A DNA stretch of 64,000 nt from contig NZ_CP054918.1 in NCBI RefSeq assembly GCF_013364195.1, forward strand, positions 5,817,001 through 5,881,000. The letters run 5' to 3'. Under the pieces are notes generated by a model. It saw only the letters and a list, made by a program, of their open reading frames with translations. It was not told the DNA's origin and searched no databases. Shown one piece after another: positions 1-15,533 of this stretch (the first letter of the stretch is position 1; each line of letters starts with the position of its first letter). The translations under genes and the position numbers were made by a program. The DNA is from Streptomyces sp. NA04227. GTDB taxonomy: Bacteria; Actinomycetota; Actinomycetes; Streptomycetales; Streptomycetaceae.

Positions 1-333
1 CCGTGCCCGGTGTGCCGGTGGCGCCGTGAGACGGGGTTCGGGGGCGGGGACGAGCGGGGGCGAGGGCTGCTCCGGGGAGTCGCCGGAAGAGGCCGCCGCA
101 GGTCCGGGGACACGCCCCGGAACGGCGGCCACCGGGCCGTCACCACCACTGTCCCCGTCCGCCGACATCCGGGCGGCCAGCCACAGGGCGTCCGCCAACT
201 CCTCGGCGGTGGGCGTGAGTTCGGCTTCCCGCAGCCGGGCGACGAGCGCGATCAGGGCGTGCCGCGCGGCCGGGGCGGCACCACCTGGGGTGTCCGTCCC
301 GGCCGGGCGCTCGTCCCTCGGGAAGCCGGTCAT
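1..333 (-). CDS. SAV_2336-like conflict-system protein, N-terminal part (truncated by window edge)
   Basis: The frame is open from an ATG at 333 to the window edge, so only about 111 residues are visible. Residues 26-52 form an amphipathic helical segment containing TAEELADALWLAARM, which I recognise as resembling the start of Streptomyces SAV_2336-type proteins; a Pro/Ala-rich linker follows. It starts 7 bases after the stop of the MoxR-type ATPase gene, so the two are probably translationally coupled. In known systems of this type the partner beyond the ATPase is usually a large protein carrying a vWA or other signalling/effector region, but that part lies outside the window. The family call rests on a short segment and is tentative; the existence of the gene is well supported by open frame and codon use. 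Confidence 0.6.
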   Translation of the reverse strand, partial: MTGFPRDERPAGTDTPGGAAPAARHALIALVARLREAELTPTAEELADALWLAARMSADGDSGGDGPVAAVPGRVPGPAAASSGDSPEQPSPPLVPAPEPRLTAPPAHRAR

Positions 334-340
334 GTCGTCG

Positions 341-1342
341 CTACCGTGGCCCGCGGTCCAGTGGCCGCATCAGGAGCCCCGCGATCTCCTCGCGGCGCCT
401 TGGCTCCTGCCGTGCGGTGTGCTGGGCCAGGAAGATGGCGTTCAGGAGCTGGTCGGTGGGCCGCAGCGCACCGTCCGACTCGGCCTGGGTGAACTGGCCG
501 ACGAGGTCGAGGTTCTCGTCGTAGGACTCGGCGCCGAAGTGGGCCAGGATCATCGCGGCGAGCCGCTGGTCGCGCGGCGGTTCCAGATCCAGCGGGACAC
601 AGCGGCGCAGCAGCGGGGCGGGGAACTCGCGCTCGCGGTTGCTGGTCATCACCACGACGGGGAACGCGCGACAGCGCACCCGGCCGCCGGTGACCGGCAC
701 CCGGCGGCCGTCGTCGGTGAGCACGTGCACGGTCTCCTGGCCCGGCCGGTCGGCGATGCGTTCCAGCTCCGGGATGCCGAACTCGCCCTCCTCCAGGACG
801 TTCAGGAGGTCGTTGGGCAGGTCGATGTCGCTCTTGTCGAGCTCGTCGATGAGCAGCACCCGGGGCCGGTCGGTGGCCAGGAGCGCGGTGCCCAGCGGCC
901 CGAGCCGGAGGTAGCGGCCGATGTCCTCGGCCTGGCCCGAGCCGAGCTGGTTGTCCTGGAGCCGCCCGATCGCGTCGTAGGTGTAGAGCCCGTCCTTGAG
1001 TTCGCTGCGGCTGACCACGGCCCACTGCAGGACCCGGCCGAGCCCGAGTTCGTGCGCCAGGGAGTGGGCGAGCGTGCTCTTGCCGGAGCCCGGCTCGCCG
1101 GTGACCAGGAGGGGGCGGCGCAAGTAGAGGGCGGCGTTGACGAGTTCGAGGGTCTCGGTCTCCTGTACCGGCATGGGTACCGGGGACTCGCCGAGCCGCC
1201 GCAGCGAGGCGCTGTCCAGCGGCGGCACCTCGTACTCCACCGGCTCGGCGTCGAAGGCGCGCCACGGCGGCGGGGCGGGCAGCCGGCCGATCCGGCCGGG
1301 ATCGGGGCCGCCTGCGCCCTGGTAGACGAACCATCCGGTCAC
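341..1342 (-). CDS. MoxR-type AAA+ ATPase of a VMAP/trypsin-associated system
   Basis: A 333-residue AAA+ ATPase of the MoxR kind, expected to use ATP hydrolysis to remodel or activate a partner protein. Walker A GEPGSGKS lies at residues 82-89, Walker B RVLLIDEL at 161-168, the sensor-1 stretch MTSNRER near 232-238, and arginine-finger candidates in PLLRRC near 243-248. The start chosen is a GTG at 1342 preceded by GAGGAG; an upstream in-frame start would add 65 residues of unlikely composition without a ribosome site. The gene lies between the trypsin/VMAP-C gene (247-base gap upstream) and the SAV_2336-like gene. The MoxR-trypsin-Trypco neighbourhood matches the NTP-dependent conflict systems described by comparative genomics; the biological trigger is unknown. 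Confidence 0.88.
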   Translation of the reverse strand: MTGWFVYQGAGGPDPGRIGRLPAPPPWRAFDAEPVEYEVPPLDSASLRRLGESPVPMPVQETETLELVNAALYLRRPLLVTGEPGSGKSTLAHSLAHELGLGRVLQWAVVSRSELKDGLYTYDAIGRLQDNQLGSGQAEDIGRYLRLGPLGTALLATDRPRVLLIDELDKSDIDLPNDLLNVLEEGEFGIPELERIADRPGQETVHVLTDDGRRVPVTGGRVRCRAFPVVVMTSNREREFPAPLLRRCVPLDLEPPRDQRLAAMILAHFGAESYDENLDLVGQFTQAESDGALRPTDQLLNAIFLAQHTARQEPRRREEIAGLLMRPLDRGPR

Positions 1343-1589
1343 GGCTTGCTCCTCGTCGACGGTCGGTGGCTGACCACGAACTGGCCGACAGGGCGGCGGG
1401 CACCCACAACGGGCCCCTGGGAATGTACCCACCCAGCGCCAGGTAACAGTTGATTTCCGGCCATACAGCCATGCTGTTTTGGCCCTTCGCAGTCCGAGTC
1501 GTAGGGGGACTGCCGGGTCGTACGGGACGGAGGGCACGTACCGGGGCGCGTACCCGAGCGGGTGCGCGGCGGCGTGCGGAGGCGGCCCG

Positions 1590-3647
1590 TCACGGCGGGG
1601 AATCCGCGGGCTCGGCGTCCTCGGGCGGCAGCGGCCGGTCGGGGTCGTCGTAGAGCAGGGCGACCGGTTCGGCCCAGCGCAGCCCGTCGTGGCCGCGGCT
1701 GATGTCGTGCCGGATGTGCCGCAGCCGGTCGGGCAGTTCGGCCGGTGAGCAGAGATCCCCGAACAACCGCTCCACTCCCGCGTGCAGGTCCTCGCAGTCC
1801 GCGTGGCAGCCGCCGACCGCGTGCCCCTCGATGTCCCACAGCGCCATGCCGTGCCCGCTGTCCAGCGCCAGCCGCATCACCTTGCGGCCGAGACCGCGCC
1901 CGGCGGGCCTGCACATCACGGGCACGCTGGTGGCCGCGAGACCGTGGAAGTACCGCCCCCGCGGCTCCCGGTCCCGCTCGGGCACCCGCTGCGCGACCCA
2001 CTCCCGCGCGGCACCGGACCGCTGCCAGCGGTCCGCCCAGTCCCGACCCGTACCGCCGGCCTCGCCCGCCCCGTCCGGCTCGGCCGGATTTCCACCGGCG
2101 CCACGGCGCGCGAGGTCGCGCAGCACGACACAGCGTTGCGTACCCAGGCGCGCGGTCTCGTACAGCTTCGGTACCTCCTCCAGGTGCCAGCGGTGCGCCT
2201 GGAGGTCGAAGTGCTCGGCGGGCAGGGCGATTTCCAGCGGTACGGCCGCGCCCTCGGCGTCCTCGCGGGCGAGGGTGTCCCGCAACGGCTCGCGCAGCGC
2301 GGGCAGCAGGTCGCGCGGCAGCACGCCCTCGCCCGAGTAGTCCTCGCCGGTCATCTCCCGCTCGCCGCCGTGGGCACCCTCGTTGACCCAGATCTGCCAG
2401 TGGAAGCGGGTGGGCCTGGAGCCGATCACGGGGTCGAGCAGGACGGTTACGGTCGGGCCCTGGCCGGGTCCGGGGTAACGCACCACCACGCGGTCGCCGT
2501 CGCCGGGCAGCGGCCGCAGCTCGGCGGGCAGCCGTGCGTCGGTGACCAGCGCGTGCAGCGCCGTGCGCTCGTCCTCCGCGAGCCGTTCCGTCACGAACTC
2601 CTCGAGCCGTCCGGTGTCGCCGCCCCGGCAGCGTACGTACTCCGCGACCAGCCGCAGATAGTGCAGGAAGGGGAGCATGTCCCCCGGCTGCGGGGTGTCG
2701 TAGAGCAGTCCGTGGCCGTCGCGCCAGGTGTGCAGGGCGGGCAGGGTGCCCGGTATCCGGCCGCCGCGCACCTTGCGGACCAGCTTGGCGACCGACAACG
2801 GCGTCGCGGGCGGGGCCAGTTCGGCGAGCAGGCGCAGGGCCCTGCGGCGGTCCTTGGCGGTCCAGCGGTCGGGGCCCGGGTGGGCGTCGCCGCGGGCCAG
2901 CCGGTGCTGTTCACCCGCCCAGGTGTAGCCGGTGGGGCCACCGGACGGGCCGCCGTGCCAGCGGTCGTGCCCGTCCATCACCTCGCCGTAGATCTCCTTG
3001 AACTGCCGCAGCGCGGGCAGCGCGACGGCCATACCGCCGTCGCGTTCCTTGCGCCGCGACTTGATCAGCCCGACCACGGCCCCGGTGTACGGGTCGAGCA
3101 GCGGGCCGCCGGAGACCCCCTTGGGGAAGGACACCTCGGGCTTGAACCGCAGCCCCCAGTCACCGTCGCGCACATTGATCTCGGCGTCCGCGCTCCACGG
3201 CTTGGCCCAGGGCTCCAGGTCCTGCGGCTGGTAGCCATAGGCCACCACGTCGCCGATGTGCCGCAGCGCCCGGTCCGCGAGCCATACACACTCGTGCGGG
3301 ACGTCCGCCTCCACCAGCCGCAGCAGCGCGAGGTCCTGCTCCGGCGGCAGCGGCAGGTGCGCGCCCTCCGGTGACGCACGCAGGGTCCGCCGGGCGGCCT
3401 CCGGGAGGAAGGCCAGCCGGGCGGCCACCGGGATGCCGTCGTTGAAGTCGGCTCCCCGTACGGCGAGTTGACGCTCCGGATCCCGGGCGATCTCCGGTGC
3501 GAGCACATGGGCGCAGGTCAGGATCAGGCCCGGCGCGACGAAGAACCCGCTCCCCCACATCGCGCCGTCGCCCTTGGCGCCGCCGTCCAGGAGGTGCACG
3601 GTCGCGGCCCGGGCGAGCGTGTCCAGACGCGGATCCGGCTCAGGCAT
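1590..3647 (-). CDS. Trypsin-like serine protease fused to a VMAP-C-type domain
   Basis: A 685-residue protein. Residues 1-220 are a trypsin/DegP-like protease with an apparently complete triad: His47 in LTCAHV, Asp105 in EQDLALL and Ser179 in GVSGGPLLD. No signal peptide is seen, so it should act in the cytoplasm. A helical segment (about 260-340) resembles the effector-associated adaptor regions of conflict systems, and the C-terminal part (about 400-670), ending in GLRWAEPVALLYDDPDR, resembles the C-terminal vWA-MoxR-associated protein domain (VMAP-C). The ATG at 3647 overlaps the end of the Trypco-like gene by 8 bases. Expected role: a switchable protease activated within a complex with the neighbouring AAA+ ATPase. 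Substrate and trigger cannot be read from sequence. Confidence 0.85.
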   Translation of the reverse strand: MPEPDPRLDTLARAATVHLLDGGAKGDGAMWGSGFFVAPGLILTCAHVLAPEIARDPERQLAVRGADFNDGIPVAARLAFLPEAARRTLRASPEGAHLPLPPEQDLALLRLVEADVPHECVWLADRALRHIGDVVAYGYQPQDLEPWAKPWSADAEINVRDGDWGLRFKPEVSFPKGVSGGPLLDPYTGAVVGLIKSRRKERDGGMAVALPALRQFKEIYGEVMDGHDRWHGGPSGGPTGYTWAGEQHRLARGDAHPGPDRWTAKDRRRALRLLAELAPPATPLSVAKLVRKVRGGRIPGTLPALHTWRDGHGLLYDTPQPGDMLPFLHYLRLVAEYVRCRGGDTGRLEEFVTERLAEDERTALHALVTDARLPAELRPLPGDGDRVVVRYPGPGQGPTVTVLLDPVIGSRPTRFHWQIWVNEGAHGGEREMTGEDYSGEGVLPRDLLPALREPLRDTLAREDAEGAAVPLEIALPAEHFDLQAHRWHLEEVPKLYETARLGTQRCVVLRDLARRGAGGNPAEPDGAGEAGGTGRDWADRWQRSGAAREWVAQRVPERDREPRGRYFHGLAATSVPVMCRPAGRGLGRKVMRLALDSGHGMALWDIEGHAVGGCHADCEDLHAGVERLFGDLCSPAELPDRLRHIRHDISRGHDGLRWAEPVALLYDDPDRPLPPEDAEPADSPP

Positions 3648-4320
3648 GCGGCTCGTTCGGCGGTGCGGGCGGCCTGGCCGGGGGCGGAGGCGGGGGTGTC
3701 ACCGGGGGCGCGGGCGGCAGGGGCGGTTCGGGGGCCTGCGCGGGTACGGGCGCGGGCGGCGGCGCGGGGTTCGGGGCGGCCGCCGGGGCGGGGGCCGTTC
3801 CCGCGGCCGGATCGTGCACCACAGCGGCCTCGGGAGCGGGAGTTCGGGAGGCAGACGTGCCCGCGGCCTCCGAGGAGTCCGTCGCGGAGGAGTCCGTCGC
3901 GGAGGAGTCCGTCGCGGAGGAGTCCGTCGCCGAAGTGTCCGATTCCGACGCGTCCGATGCCGCAGCCGCCCGGTCCCGGCCCGGCCGGGTGGGCGCCCCG
4001 CGCTCGCCGAACCGCCAGGTGAGGGTGACCTGTACGGAGGCCTTCGCCTCGCCCTCGGCGAGGATGGCCACGACCTTGCCCGGTTTGGCGGTCAGTTCGA
4101 CGCCGAAGGTGAGGGCCGCCTCGTCGGGCGCGACCGCGGCGGCGGCGTCCAGGACGGACGAACCCACGCCCCGGATCAGCTCGCCGAGTTCCTCCACCCG
4201 CGCGGCCACCGTGTCCCGTACGCCGACGTCCTCGTCGTCCTCGCCGTACGCGGCCCCCGGACTGACCCGGGCGTACACCACCTGGCCGCCGGGCAGCTCG
4301 ATCCGCTGCACGTACCCCAC
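3640..4320 (-). CDS. Trypsin-co-occurring domain (Trypco1 / CU044_2847-like) protein
   Basis: About 226 residues. The first ~110 form a compact beta-rich domain starting VGYVQRIELPGGQ and ending VQVTLTWRFG, which I recognise as the small domain that typically sits beside trypsin genes in actinobacterial conflict systems. The remainder is low complexity: an Ala/Ser/Asp region containing four consecutive TDSSA-type repeats and a proline-rich tail, suggesting a flexible tether. The GTG start at 4320 was chosen because the domain begins there; the frame remains open upstream to 4719 but that stretch runs antisense through the next gene. The ribosome site is weak (GGGGGCAGG). It is the first gene of the four-gene minus-strand cassette and overlaps the protease gene by 8 bases. 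Confidence 0.75.
   Translation of the reverse strand: MGYVQRIELPGGQVVYARVSPGAAYGEDDEDVGVRDTVAARVEELGELIRGVGSSVLDAAAAVAPDEAALTFGVELTAKPGKVVAILAEGEAKASVQVTLTWRFGERGAPTRPGRDRAAAASDASESDTSATDSSATDSSATDSSATDSSEAAGTSASRTPAPEAAVVHDPAAGTAPAPAAAPNPAPPPAPVPAQAPEPPLPPAPPVTPPPPPPARPPAPPNEPHA
3873..3932 (-). repeat. 15-bp tandem repeat, four copies, coding
   Basis: Four consecutive near-identical copies of a 15-base unit (plus strand GAGGAGTCCGTCGCG) lie inside the Trypco-like gene and encode repeated Ser-Ala-Thr-Asp-Ser. In-frame expansion or contraction would change linker length without disrupting the gene. Confidence 0.9.
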
Positions 4321-4823: not shown

Positions 4824-5774
4824 TCACCCGGCCGGGTTCCCCGGCGTCGCCCCGTCCGCCCGGATCGCCTCGGCGAGTGCGGTGCCCAGGGCCGCCGAGC
4901 CCTTGCCGCTCGGGTGCAGTGGGGCGGCCGGGCTGGTCGGGATCAGGCCCTCCAGGTGGCGGTCGCCGGGTGCGGCGCAGCTGTCGTGGCCCTCGGTCGC
5001 GGCGAATCCGTCCACGAACACGGCGTTGTGCGCGGCGGCCTGTTCGCGCAGGGCGGCGCTGAGCTTGTTCACGGTGCCTTGGACGTAATCGGCGTCGCGG
5101 GCCCAGATCGGCTGGGTGGGATAGCAGCCGCCCTTGCGGATGTAGTCGCCGTAGCCGACCACGAAGACCCGGGCGGCCGGGGCCCGGCGGTGGATCTCGT
5201 CCAGCGCCTCGCCCAGCCGGGGCGCCCAGTCGGCGATGTCCTCGGCCAGCTGGTCGCGGCCGCCCGAAGTGAAGCGGTCGGCGCAGCTGGCCCCGACCGG
5301 CTCCGGCAGCGCGTTCAGACAGCTCAGGGCCGCGGTGACAAGACCGTTGTCGTTGCCGCCGATGGTCAGGCTGACCAGGTCGGTGCCGGGTCCGAGCGCC
5401 TCGTACTGCGGTGCGACGAAGCCGAATTGACGGCTCGCGAAGTGGTCGAGGGTCGCACCCGAGCAGCTGACGTCGTTGAGCCGGGCACCGATCCGCTCGG
5501 CCGCCACGTCCGGATATCCGGCCTTGGAGGCGAGGCAGGCGGGCCGCGAGAGGTCGATCGCGGGCACCAGCGGCGCGGCCGCGAAGGAGTCGCCGAGCGC
5601 GACGTAGTCAGGTGCCGCGTCCGCGGAGGCCTGGGCCTGCGCGGGCGCCGCGCCGAGGGCCGTGCAGAGCAGGGCCGCGCATCCGGCGACGGCGGTGACG
5701 AGCGGACGCGCACCGCGGCGGGCCCGCGGCGCGGCCGTGGTGGTCGAACGGGATGTGAAGGGGCGGGACGGCAT
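4824..5774 (-). CDS. Secreted SGNH/GDSL-type hydrolase (esterase/lipase)
   Basis: A 316-residue exported hydrolase. Residues 1-48 are a signal peptide with an arginine-rich n-region (RARRGARPL), a hydrophobic core and an AxA cleavage region (APAQAQASA). Block I ALGDSF gives catalytic Ser63, block III IGGNDNG gives the oxyanion Asn, and HPSGKG near the C-terminus gives the catalytic His. Several cysteines could form disulfides as in Streptomyces extracellular lipases of this fold. The ATG at 5774 has GAGGAG upstream. It is divergent from the PucR-type regulator gene. Substrate is most likely a lipid or acetylated ester; precise specificity cannot be inferred. Confidence 0.88.
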   Translation of the reverse strand: MPSRPFTSRSTTTAAPRARRGARPLVTAVAGCAALLCTALGAAPAQAQASADAAPDYVALGDSFAAAPLVPAIDLSRPACLASKAGYPDVAAERIGARLNDVSCSGATLDHFASRQFGFVAPQYEALGPGTDLVSLTIGGNDNGLVTAALSCLNALPEPVGASCADRFTSGGRDQLAEDIADWAPRLGEALDEIHRRAPAARVFVVGYGDYIRKGGCYPTQPIWARDADYVQGTVNKLSAALREQAAAHNAVFVDGFAATEGHDSCAAPGDRHLEGLIPTSPAAPLHPSGKGSAALGTALAEAIRADGATPGNPAG

Positions 5775-6066
5775 GGGCACTCCTCGGTTCGGCTTGTGCG
5801 GGACACCAAAGGACGCGCTGTGCGCGGAGGATGAGGGATTTCCGGACGGCAGGCCGGGGACAGCGCCCCGCCTGCACAGCGATTCCGGCGCTCGCCATCC
5901 TCGCGCGCCGGCCGCACGGGAGCGCCGGGACGGCGGACAGGCTTTGCACGCTCCGTGTTGTGCGGGATCACAAATGATCATCCAGGCATCGTGCGTACGT
6001 CCGGGATCTGGTGCCACGCACCACGCCCGTGTTACCCCTGGGTACGACCCAAGGGAGGTGGTCCGG

Positions 6067-7344
6067 ATGAACGAGCACGGCACGGTGCCGCGCACACTCG
6101 CCCACGGCGAGGCGCTGACCATAGCCGGGCGTCCGCTCCACGAACTCCTGCTGGAGCACTCGCGCGAGCTGGTCGGCCTGGTCGTCGTACGGCTGGCCGA
6201 GACGGTGCCCACCTACGCGGCCCTGCCCCGCGAGGCACTGCGTGGCGAGATCGCGTCCATCGTGGAACTCAACGTGGCCATGTGCGCCGAGGTCCTGCGC
6301 ACCGGCAGCCTGCCCTCCACCGAGCAGCTCGACGCGCTGCGCGAGGCCGCGACCCGCAGGGCCGAGGAGGGCGTGGCGCTCGACGCCGTCGTCAGCGCCT
6401 ACCACGTCGGGCTCCAGCTCTGTCTGGACGAGGTGCTCGGCCGGGCGGGTCCGGACGACCTGCCCAGCGTCCTCGACGGGACGGCGTGGGTACTGCGGTT
6501 CCTCCAGGTGACGACCTCGGCGGCGTCCGGCGGTTATGTACTGGCGCACAAGTCGGCCGTCGGCGAGGAGTACACCGCACGCCAGGCCCTGCTGTCGGCG
6601 CTGCTCGACGGCGGCCCCGCACAGGACACGGCGGCCCGGGCCGGTCTGGCCCTCCCGGAGTGCTATCTGGTGCTGTCCCTCGGCGTGGGCCCGCACCCCG
6701 ACGAGCTGACCAGCGGCGTCGACTCCACGGTGGCCGCCCGGCGCAAGCTCCGGCGCCTGCGCGTGGAACTCGAACGGCACGTCGCGGGCGGGGTGTTGAC
6801 CATGCTGACCGCCGAGGGCGGCCTGGCCCTCGTGCCGTACGGAACCCTGCCCGAGAAGCTCGGCCCCAGGGACTGGCAGTGGCTCGCGGGCGTACTCGAC
6901 CATCTGGTCCGGGTCTGCGGCGCCGAGGTCACGGCGGGGGTGGCGGCGGCCGTACCGGACGACGTGCCGCAGGCCGTGCGACTGAGCGCCGAAGTACGGG
7001 AGGTGGCCGGGGTGTTCGACCGCGGCCCCGGCCTGCACCGCCTCGACGACCTGCTCCTGGAGTACCAGCTCACCCGCCCCGGGCCGGCCCGCGCCCGGCT
7101 CGCCGCGCTCCTGGAACCGTTGTCCGCGCGGCCCGACCTGCTGCACACCCTGCGGACCCACCTCGACAGCTCCCTCGACCGCCGGGTGGCCGCCGCCCGT
7201 CTCCAGGTCCACCCCAACACGGTCGACTACCGCCTGCGCAAGGTCGCCCTGCTCACCGGACTCGACACCGGCGATCCGGCGGACGTGCCCAGGGTCCGGG
7301 CGGCACTCGCGGCACTGGACGCGGCGGGACCGCCCGCGGTGTGA
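6067..7344 (+). CDS. PucR/CdaR-type transcriptional regulator
   Basis: A 425-residue regulator. The N-terminal half is helical and sensor-like, the middle carries a GGDEF-like fold region typical of CdaR regulators, and the C-terminal helix-turn-helix is the PucR type (RVAAARLQVHPNTVDYRLRK, near residues 378-397). The ATG at 6067 follows AAGGGAGGT at good spacing. The gene stands alone, divergent from the SGNH hydrolase, so a local target is possible but not demonstrated. Family members respond to small metabolites; the ligand here is unknown. Confidence 0.87.
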   Translation: MNEHGTVPRTLAHGEALTIAGRPLHELLLEHSRELVGLVVVRLAETVPTYAALPREALRGEIASIVELNVAMCAEVLRTGSLPSTEQLDALREAATRRAEEGVALDAVVSAYHVGLQLCLDEVLGRAGPDDLPSVLDGTAWVLRFLQVTTSAASGGYVLAHKSAVGEEYTARQALLSALLDGGPAQDTAARAGLALPECYLVLSLGVGPHPDELTSGVDSTVAARRKLRRLRVELERHVAGGVLTMLTAEGGLALVPYGTLPEKLGPRDWQWLAGVLDHLVRVCGAEVTAGVAAAVPDDVPQAVRLSAEVREVAGVFDRGPGLHRLDDLLLEYQLTRPGPARARLAALLEPLSARPDLLHTLRTHLDSSLDRRVAAARLQVHPNTVDYRLRKVALLTGLDTGDPADVPRVRAALAALDAAGPPAV

Positions 7345-14597: not shown

Positions 14598-15533
14598 GTG
14601 ACTGACCTGGAAAAGACGGGACCACAGGACGTCCCGCCGCCCGCCCGGCACCCGGAGGCCATCAAGGCCATCCCGGTGCGCCACTACGGACGCTACGTCT
14701 CCGCCGTGATCGCGCTCGCGGTCCTCGGCGCGATCGTCTACGCCTTCGCACAGGGCGACATCAACTGGGGCGCCATCCCCGACAACTTCTTCGACGAGCG
14801 CATCCTGCGCGGTGTGCGCGTCACCCTGGTCCTGACCTTCCTGTCGATGGCCATCGGCATCGGCGGCGGCATCCTGCTCGCGGTGATGCGGCTCTCGAAG
14901 AACCCGGTGACCTCGTCGATCGCCTGGTTCTACATCTGGTTCTTCCGGGGTACGCCGGTCCTGGTCCAGCTCTTCGTCTGGTTCAACCTCGGCTTCGTCT
15001 TCGACTACATCAACCTCGGCCCCGTCTACAAGGACGAGTGGTCGGACTTCATGACGCCGTTCCTCACGGCGCTGCTCGGCCTCGGCCTCAACGAGGCCGC
15101 GTACATGGCGGAGATCTGCCGTGCCGGTCTGCTCTCCGTCGACGAGGGCCAGACCGAGGCCTCGCACGCGCTCGGCATGAGCCACTCCAAGACGCTGCGC
15201 CGTGTCGTGGTCCCGCAGGCGATGCGCGTCATCGTGCCGCCGACGGGCAACGAGGTCATCAACATGTTGAAGACCACCGCTCTGGTGGCGGCCACGCAGT
15301 ACTCCGAACTCCTGCGCTACGCCCAGGACATCGGCCAAACATCCGGCGCGACCGTGGAAGTGCTGTTCCTCGCGGCGGCCTGGTACCTGATCATGACCTC
15401 CGTGCTCAGCGTCGGGCAGTACTACCTGGAGCGGCACTACGCGCGCGGTGCGTCCCGTGCCCTGCCGCCGACCGTGTTGCAGAAGATCAAGGCCCACACG
15501 CTGTCTCTCGGCAGCCCGAGGGGAGTCAGCTGA
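14598..15533 (+). CDS. Amino-acid ABC transporter permease
   Basis: A 311-residue inner-membrane permease of the HisM/GlnP type with about five membrane helices beginning near residue 35. The coupling-loop EAA motif is visible as [20 protein letters not shown] followed by [18 protein letters not shown]. The GTG at 14598 has GGGAAAGG upstream; a GTG 18 bases earlier is an alternative. The stop overlaps the start of the ATPase gene (TGATG), showing translational coupling. Only one permease gene is present, so the transporter probably uses a homodimer. Confidence 0.92.

Follow-up and report, generated by a model that had tools for sequence, protein, structure and literature searches.

What kind of system begins at the left edge of this stretch of DNA, and what would set it off? 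The window, 64,000 nucleotides of Streptomyces sp. NA04227 (positions 5817001-5881000 of a one-contig genome of 7.9 Mb), opens with four minus-strand genes, in which an earlier note had recognised a vWA-MoxR-VMAP ternary system with its effector expected further left. We read the left flank 15 kb further (locus L009, in which base 15001 is window base 1). Window and flank together hold a seven-gene minus-strand operon encoding Trypco1, a trypsin-VMAP-C protein, a MoxR ATPase, a vWA protein, a precursor peptide, the maturase FxsB and the ATPase FxsT. Tentatively, and with rather less than even confidence, we read it as a VMAP-type MoxR-vWA ternary conflict system that would work inside the cell as a switch, with the stapled tail of the peptide as the putative ligand gating the trypsin. 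The genes are as follows.

Window 3640..4320, minus strand: Trypco1 gene (PF19493, NF041216), with a putative start near 4320.
Window 1590..3647, minus strand: VMAP, 685 residues, trypsin-like N-terminal and VMAP-C C-terminal domain (PF13365, PF20028).
Window 341..1537, minus strand: MoxR AAA+ ATPase, open reading frame of 398 residues (PF07728).
Window 1..333, whole gene L009:11605-15333, minus strand: vWA component, 1242 residues (NF041121).
L009:11441-11608, minus strand: precursor peptide, 55 residues, ending ARYEDSP-COOH.
L009:10218-11444, minus strand: FxsB radical SAM/SPASM maturase, 408 residues (TIGR04269).
L009:7264-10188, minus strand: FxsT, a TIR-like/NB-ARC/TPR protein, 974 residues (NF040586).

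Recomputation placed the four window genes and their junctions where the earlier note had them: Trypco1 and VMAP overlap by 8 bases (3640-3647), and a 7-base gap (334-340) separates MoxR from vWA. The frame of the precursor peptide overlaps both of its neighbours, vWA and FxsB, as ATGA, and 29 bases lie between FxsB and FxsT. The note was right that the operon continues leftward; what it could not see is that the flank brings a cyclophane-peptide cassette and a TIR-like/NB-ARC/TPR ATPase. It had named an unrelated housekeeping operon on that side as evidence against its assignment. The left neighbours look like parts of the same operon, and the housekeeping gene kgd, on the other strand, follows only after all seven genes.

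For comparison, 60 regions around FxsB matches in genomes of the genus and 79 named loci (from the best 80 of 230 candidates) were sampled. The two sets pooled gave 144 distinct FxsB rows, 117 of them with a recognisable precursor; the other 27 (scores 226-400, most of them in the stand-alone clade and some showing an FxSxx tail) had none at E<0.01 and were excluded from the core counts. All rows are distinct in sequence, and near-copies such as L048 and L114 remain among them. Within the first set, the ten closest loci (L009 and L040-L048; the contig of L040 ends inside FxsT) all keep the same cassette order, and the FxsB proteins of the nine relatives are 68-76% identical to that of the window.

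The VMAP protein joins a Trypsin_2 domain (PF13365, 54.8 bits, cut-off 27.6) to VMAP-C (PF20028, 109.3 bits, cut-off 27). Its triad H47/D105/S179 is intact, as the earlier note had stated, and identical in 40/40 aligned relatives. Six residues ahead of the catalytic Ser, the window protein has another Ser and the relatives vary (Glu in 15 and Asp in 12 of 40); a trypsin-like specificity for Arg or Lys cannot be assumed. Trypco1 scores 60.9 bits with PF19493 (cut-off 24.6) and 69.2 with the CU044_2847 profile NF041216 (cut-off 23); its frame stays open up to 4719, and a start near 4320 is plausible. The upstream reading frames of relatives match NF041216 in five of six tested, the sixth, from the F-type locus L066, matching nothing. 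In MoxR (AAA_5, PF07728, 34.1 bits, cut-off 22) the Walker A (GEPGSGKS), Walker B (VLLIDELDK) and TSN motifs are intact, again as noted earlier, and the family-specific N-terminal motifs WxhapG and PsWRxa appear as WFVYQG at residue 69 and PPWRAF at residue 90. Since WFVYQG begins only at residue 69, the true start of MoxR is probably at about 1360.

The fourth gene had been called SAV_2336-like, which it is (SAV_2336_NTERM, NF041121, 418.9 bits, cut-off 200, all 475 profile positions covered), but it had not been recognised as the vWA component itself. It carries the metal ion-dependent adhesion site motif DLSTS, whose Asp and both Ser residues do not vary across an alignment of 20 relatives, and its N-terminal EELADALWL fits the motif [D/E]xxx[D/E]xxxa in spacing, with the aromatic residue one position early. 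For the C-terminal half, Pfam gave no match at E 0.1. In the predicted model of a relative (mean local confidence, pLDDT, 71 for the whole, N-terminal half poor) this half is a helical superhelix with pLDDT mostly 80-97 that resembles TPR structures (OGT TPR domain, TMt 0.69, E 4e-8), and we predict a TPR-like superhelix here. VMAP-C at the C-terminus of the third component, the order VMAP-MoxR-vWA, the MoxR motifs, the vWA adhesion site and the Trypco neighbour all agree with the earlier ternary assignment, and the Trypco1, VMAP-C and SAV_2336 domains it had named lie above their cut-offs. The EAD domain it had also expected gave no match on the window proteins at E up to 1.

The precursor peptide has 55 codons and the tail PVLARYEDSP. 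Among the 34 distinct FxsB rows closest to that of the window (>575 bits), which were picked by FxsB score and not by motif and hence form an unselected set, a precursor was found in 34/34, and 32 end exactly in Y[ED]D[AS]P (29 YEDAP, 2 YDDAP and the single YEDSP of the window). The other two (L117:9765-9989 and L118:3064-3234) have tandem, doubled YF[SA]D[AT]P cores that are not C-terminal. Each of the ten closest first-set loci likewise has a small frame ending Y-E-D-[A/S]-P. M1, P12, L13, H27, P28, L34, R40, A49, Y51, D53 and P55 are shared, around a variable linker, by 24 aligned precursors; these were chosen with a C-terminal core and a set of 34 peptides was preselected by motif, so that the invariance of Tyr and Asp in them is partly by choice. 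At E<=0.001, NF041709, the profile of RiPPs (ribosomally synthesised and post-translationally modified peptides) with a YxD tail, matched 24/24 and 24/25 of the precursors scanned, F-type ones among them. It is unspecific at this threshold: three precursors in the second set were of F-type, and the FxSxx profile TIGR04268 also matched 1 and 4. The window peptide scores 30.1 bits with NF041709, under the cut-off of 55, and its relative in L127 scores 69.6; a profile search with the window peptide at E up to 10 listed only NF041709, and the peptide has no FxSxx-COOH ending. Its core is of YxD type, for which a Tyr-Asp staple is predicted.

FxsB scores 416 bits with TIGR04269 (cut-off 370) and is the one match at E<=1e-30 in the window genome; relatives are present in 97/150 sampled genomes of the genus. 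The nearest solved relative of its clade by sequence is ChlB (PDB 9gm3, 9gmc; E 1.3e-88), a multiple cyclophane synthase according to a paper title, to which FxsB is likened by enzyme sequence alone and not by substrate core. The maturase YxdB of the YxD-tail peptides is reportedly the work of Sugiyama et al. in 2022. As far as the accessible descriptions go, the cyclophane RiPPs of NF041709 and YxdB share with our pair a YxD core at the tail and an FxsB-family maturase alongside, the Tyr-Asp crosslink here being predicted. Because YxdB is described, in the accessible part of PMC11002830, as forming a C3(Tyr)-Cbeta(Asp) bond, we infer that FxsB would join Tyr51 to Asp53 at the very C-terminus.

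Does a metallopeptidase then free the peptide, as proposed in the accessible text of PMC7159879? No HExxH (zincin-like) frame lies between FxsB and FxsT at the window locus. A zincin peptidase as the releasing enzyme here was rejected, as the gene is absent and the three F-type HExxH proteins tested belong to TIGR04267, now named peptide beta-hydroxylase. With core types assigned by regular expressions and HExxH by pattern, the 117 distinct loci with a precursor split completely: 85/85 with a [YFH]x[DN]-type core (82 xD and 3 xN) lack the enzyme and 32/32 of F-type have it (Fisher p 1.9e-29). Since the FxsB tree places the split on one branch (approximate likelihood ratio test, SH-aLRT, 96) and needs one change for either trait, there is one independent pair; the split is one event and no proof of coupling. 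Release of the peptide by a metallopeptidase is an idea in need of revision, because one fused HExxH-radical SAM protein, although annotated as a metallopeptidase, is described as a hydroxylase that requires the cyclophane to be in place beforehand (PMC12636437, accessible part). The same preprint also mentions HEXXH enzymes that cut peptide backbones oxidatively.

FxsT scores 698.4 bits with NF040586 (cut-off 300). TPR_12 and AAA_22 lie above their Pfam cut-offs, NB-ARC (23.0 against 23.5) and TIR_2 (24.2 against 28) just below theirs, and the N-terminus has a TIR-like fold. In NADase TIR domains the catalytic Glu stands four residues after a conserved Trp. In FxsT the corresponding Trp76 and Leu80 are invariant in 38/38 sequences, the window sequence being WAAVL, with no Glu at the Glu position. 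An active TIR NADase in FxsT was rejected, the catalytic Glu being missing.

How tightly does the peptide go with the trypsin? All 40 FxsB-linked VMAP reading frames scanned combine VMAP-C with trypsin, compared with 9/22 unlinked VMAPs of the same genus, 12/22 of which have EAD2 (background: best 30 of 89 matches with loci, 8 FxsB-linked ones dropped and 22 scanned; L208, on a broken contig, is probably linked). When VMAP-C and trypsin were each searched for with a model of their own, trypsin was present in 83 of the 84 peptide loci with a VMAP-C match; the exception, L062, is a weak match of 16.5 bits. Linked VMAPs score far above unlinked ones against their own profile.

Six sister loci (L132, L136, L145, L148, L150, L161), whose peptides end YYEDSP, carry other effectors. 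Their peptide-FxsB pair is followed by SLATT_1 (6/6 by Pfam), a TIR protein, a second-type MoxR and one or more TIR-like/NB-ARC/TPR proteins. The TIR proteins are TIR_2 by Pfam in the three tested and assigned by similarity in the others; WxxxE is present in 6/6 and, more widely, in 8/8 sister-type TIR proteins beside peptide-FxsB pairs. The TIR-like/NB-ARC/TPR proteins were identified by Pfam in L136 and L150 and by similarity in the rest, the L145 copy being incomplete. No vWA protein, no VMAP-C and no trypsin was recognised in the six loci. Because they keep peptide, FxsB and TPR-ATPase with SLATT/TIR replacing trypsin, these three make up the unit that recurs, and it is the output that changes.

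L136:14422-19341 was considered as a vWA-FxsT fusion and rejected for want of a D.S.S motif; only TIR_2, NB-ARC and TPR are claimed for it. In L050 and L057 there are two peptide-FxsB pairs per locus: one belongs to the MoxR-vWA-FxsT type, the other leads into genes of the TIR-MoxR type. Neither VMAP-C nor trypsin was detected in either locus. L141 looks like the L050 locus again.

The class of system has been known since 2020. In the accessible part of their paper, Kaur, Burroughs, Iyer and Aravind (PMC7159879) describe VMAP systems with an FxSxx peptide, a radical SAM enzyme and a TIR-AP-ATPase. The operon resembles their FxSxx-type VMAP-ternary systems in its trypsin-VMAP with Trypco, MoxR, TPR-only vWA, small peptide, radical SAM-SPASM enzyme beside it and separate downstream TIR-AP-ATPase-TPR protein, the last two above the cut-offs of TIGR04269 and NF040586. 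In contrast, the peptide types given there are FxSxx, RxD, acidic and FtsH-associated, the string YxD being absent from the main text, whereas the type here is YxD; their peptide ends FxSxx-COOH and ours YEDSP; and a zincin-like HExxH protein, 'core' to their FxSxx type, is absent in the window system. The TERNS3/iSTAND2 ternary systems (PMC8195603, main text) combine a TIR-bearing third component with MoxR, as the six sister loci do; SLATT is absent from that text, and the likeness is one of TIR and MoxR only. VMAP genes are also said to occur near type III CRISPR loci (PMC10910872, accessible part). The literature searched, which included few subscription journals, yielded no experiment on any VMAP system, only further predictions, and no paper assigning YxD peptides to ternary systems of the VMAP or SLATT/TIR kind. 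Nor did we find in it a YxD branch without HExxH, the FxsB-VMAP-trypsin link, the pseudo-TIR or the SLATT/TIR output swap.

Two neighbouring genes lie outside the system.

L009:2495-6502, other strand: kgd, housekeeping (NF008907, 2119.8 bits).
Window 4824-6212, minus strand: GDSL lipase gene (PF13472), upstream of Trypco1 on the same strand and not counted in the cassette.

kgd adjoins 74 of 105 vWA-linked rows (55 xD, 3 xN, 16 F); in 23 it does not, and in 8 the sequence is too short. It stands a little further off in 7 of the 12 non-abutting F-type rows. The site beside kgd holds a YxD or an F-type system depending on the species, in the manner of alternative alleles.

How might such a switch work? 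FxsB would link Tyr51 with Asp53 in the C-terminal tail of the peptide, and the free stapled C-terminus, conserved to its last residue, would by analogy be the ligand that the vWA protein and FxsT hold in their TPR superhelices. A signal from an invader might be read through variable VMAP or TPR regions, upon which MoxR, together with VMAP, would remodel the complex and FxsT would assemble. The trypsin domain would be let loose on cell proteins or effector arms, and the infected hypha would stop growing; in sister systems the TIR/SLATT pair would stand in for it. Remodelling by VMAP and MoxR on an invader signal, followed by execution, is the general scheme predicted by Kaur et al. (PMC7159879, accessible part). 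Because the TIR/SLATT pair replaces trypsin in sister systems, we take peptide, maturase and FxsT as a putative sensing core and protease or TIR/SLATT as its exchangeable outputs. Genes, domains, gene order, the near-invariant tail and the relatives with other effectors are established at the level of sequence; an immunity or suicide role of the operon is predicted.

Several observations weigh against this picture. Binding of the tail by TPRs is an analogy only, and the peptide may instead be a secreted signal or toxin. The link between trypsin and peptide is not independent, since the VMAPs linked to FxsB appear to form a single lineage and the query that found the 40 scanned ones included the trypsin part. 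Moreover, 27 of 110 peptide loci are without trypsin and 26 have neither VMAP-C nor trypsin; because 16 of these 26 show more than 5.8 kb upstream of FxsB, the peptide needs no trypsin in cis. Finally, the cassette occupies a fixed housekeeping site, beside kgd, and no recognised defence island; PADLOC called no defence system on the locus and gave weak cross-matches only (pVip with FxsB, AAA with MoxR, RT-protease with trypsin).

The nearest rival, possible although we rather doubt it, is that the trypsin releases the peptide tail, as in the 2020 scheme with trypsin in place of the metallopeptidase. Trypsin-VMAP is the only recognised protease among the seven genes, the HExxH-radical SAM fusion being described as a hydroxylase (PMC12636437, accessible part), and it is near-constant where VMAP-C and peptide meet (40/40 and 83/84). 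All 24 aligned precursors have Arg40 ahead of the variable linker, but the mixed residue before the catalytic Ser means that cleavage at Arg cannot be assumed. Further, peptide-FxsB loci exist without trypsin, some with SLATT/TIR instead, no transporter was recognised among the seven genes, and the F-type HExxH protein might yet prove to cut peptides, given the backbone-cutting enzymes mentioned above.

We consider it improbable that the operon is a RiPP signalling system for development or secondary metabolism, and not for immunity, with the ATPases and the protease controlling its maturation and export. The stable chromosomal site beside kgd would suit such a role, as would the distribution of the VMAP-linked named loci (among the best 80 of 230), which are Streptomyces plus one Streptantibioticus (L126). 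However, the modules AP-ATPase, TIR, SLATT and trypsin are classed as parts of conflict systems (PMC7159879, accessible part), and no exporter was recognised here either. That the genes are a functionally unlinked, domain-shuffled array thrown together by chance is refuted, as far as gene order can do so, by the shared order, the conserved FxsB and the translational overlaps, and it can hardly be true.

To return to the intracellular switch, a bolder version of it, about which we are sceptical, would make the stapled peptide the resident ligand of an apoptosome-like ATPase with a pseudo-TIR adaptor. Peptide, maturase and receptor would form a portable sensing core, wired to trypsin-VMAP or to a TIR/SLATT pore, and cyclophane RiPPs would be internal immune signals that are not secreted. 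In the literature searched, the role of FxSxx/YxD cyclophane peptides is only predicted, as is immunity by VMAP systems, and this locus joins both. It calls into question the picture of a metallopeptidase releasing the peptide. With seven genes in a genetically tractable genus, a peptide and a protease serine that are both defined, and a sister system with a swapped output, it turns what is gate and what is executioner into a directly testable question.

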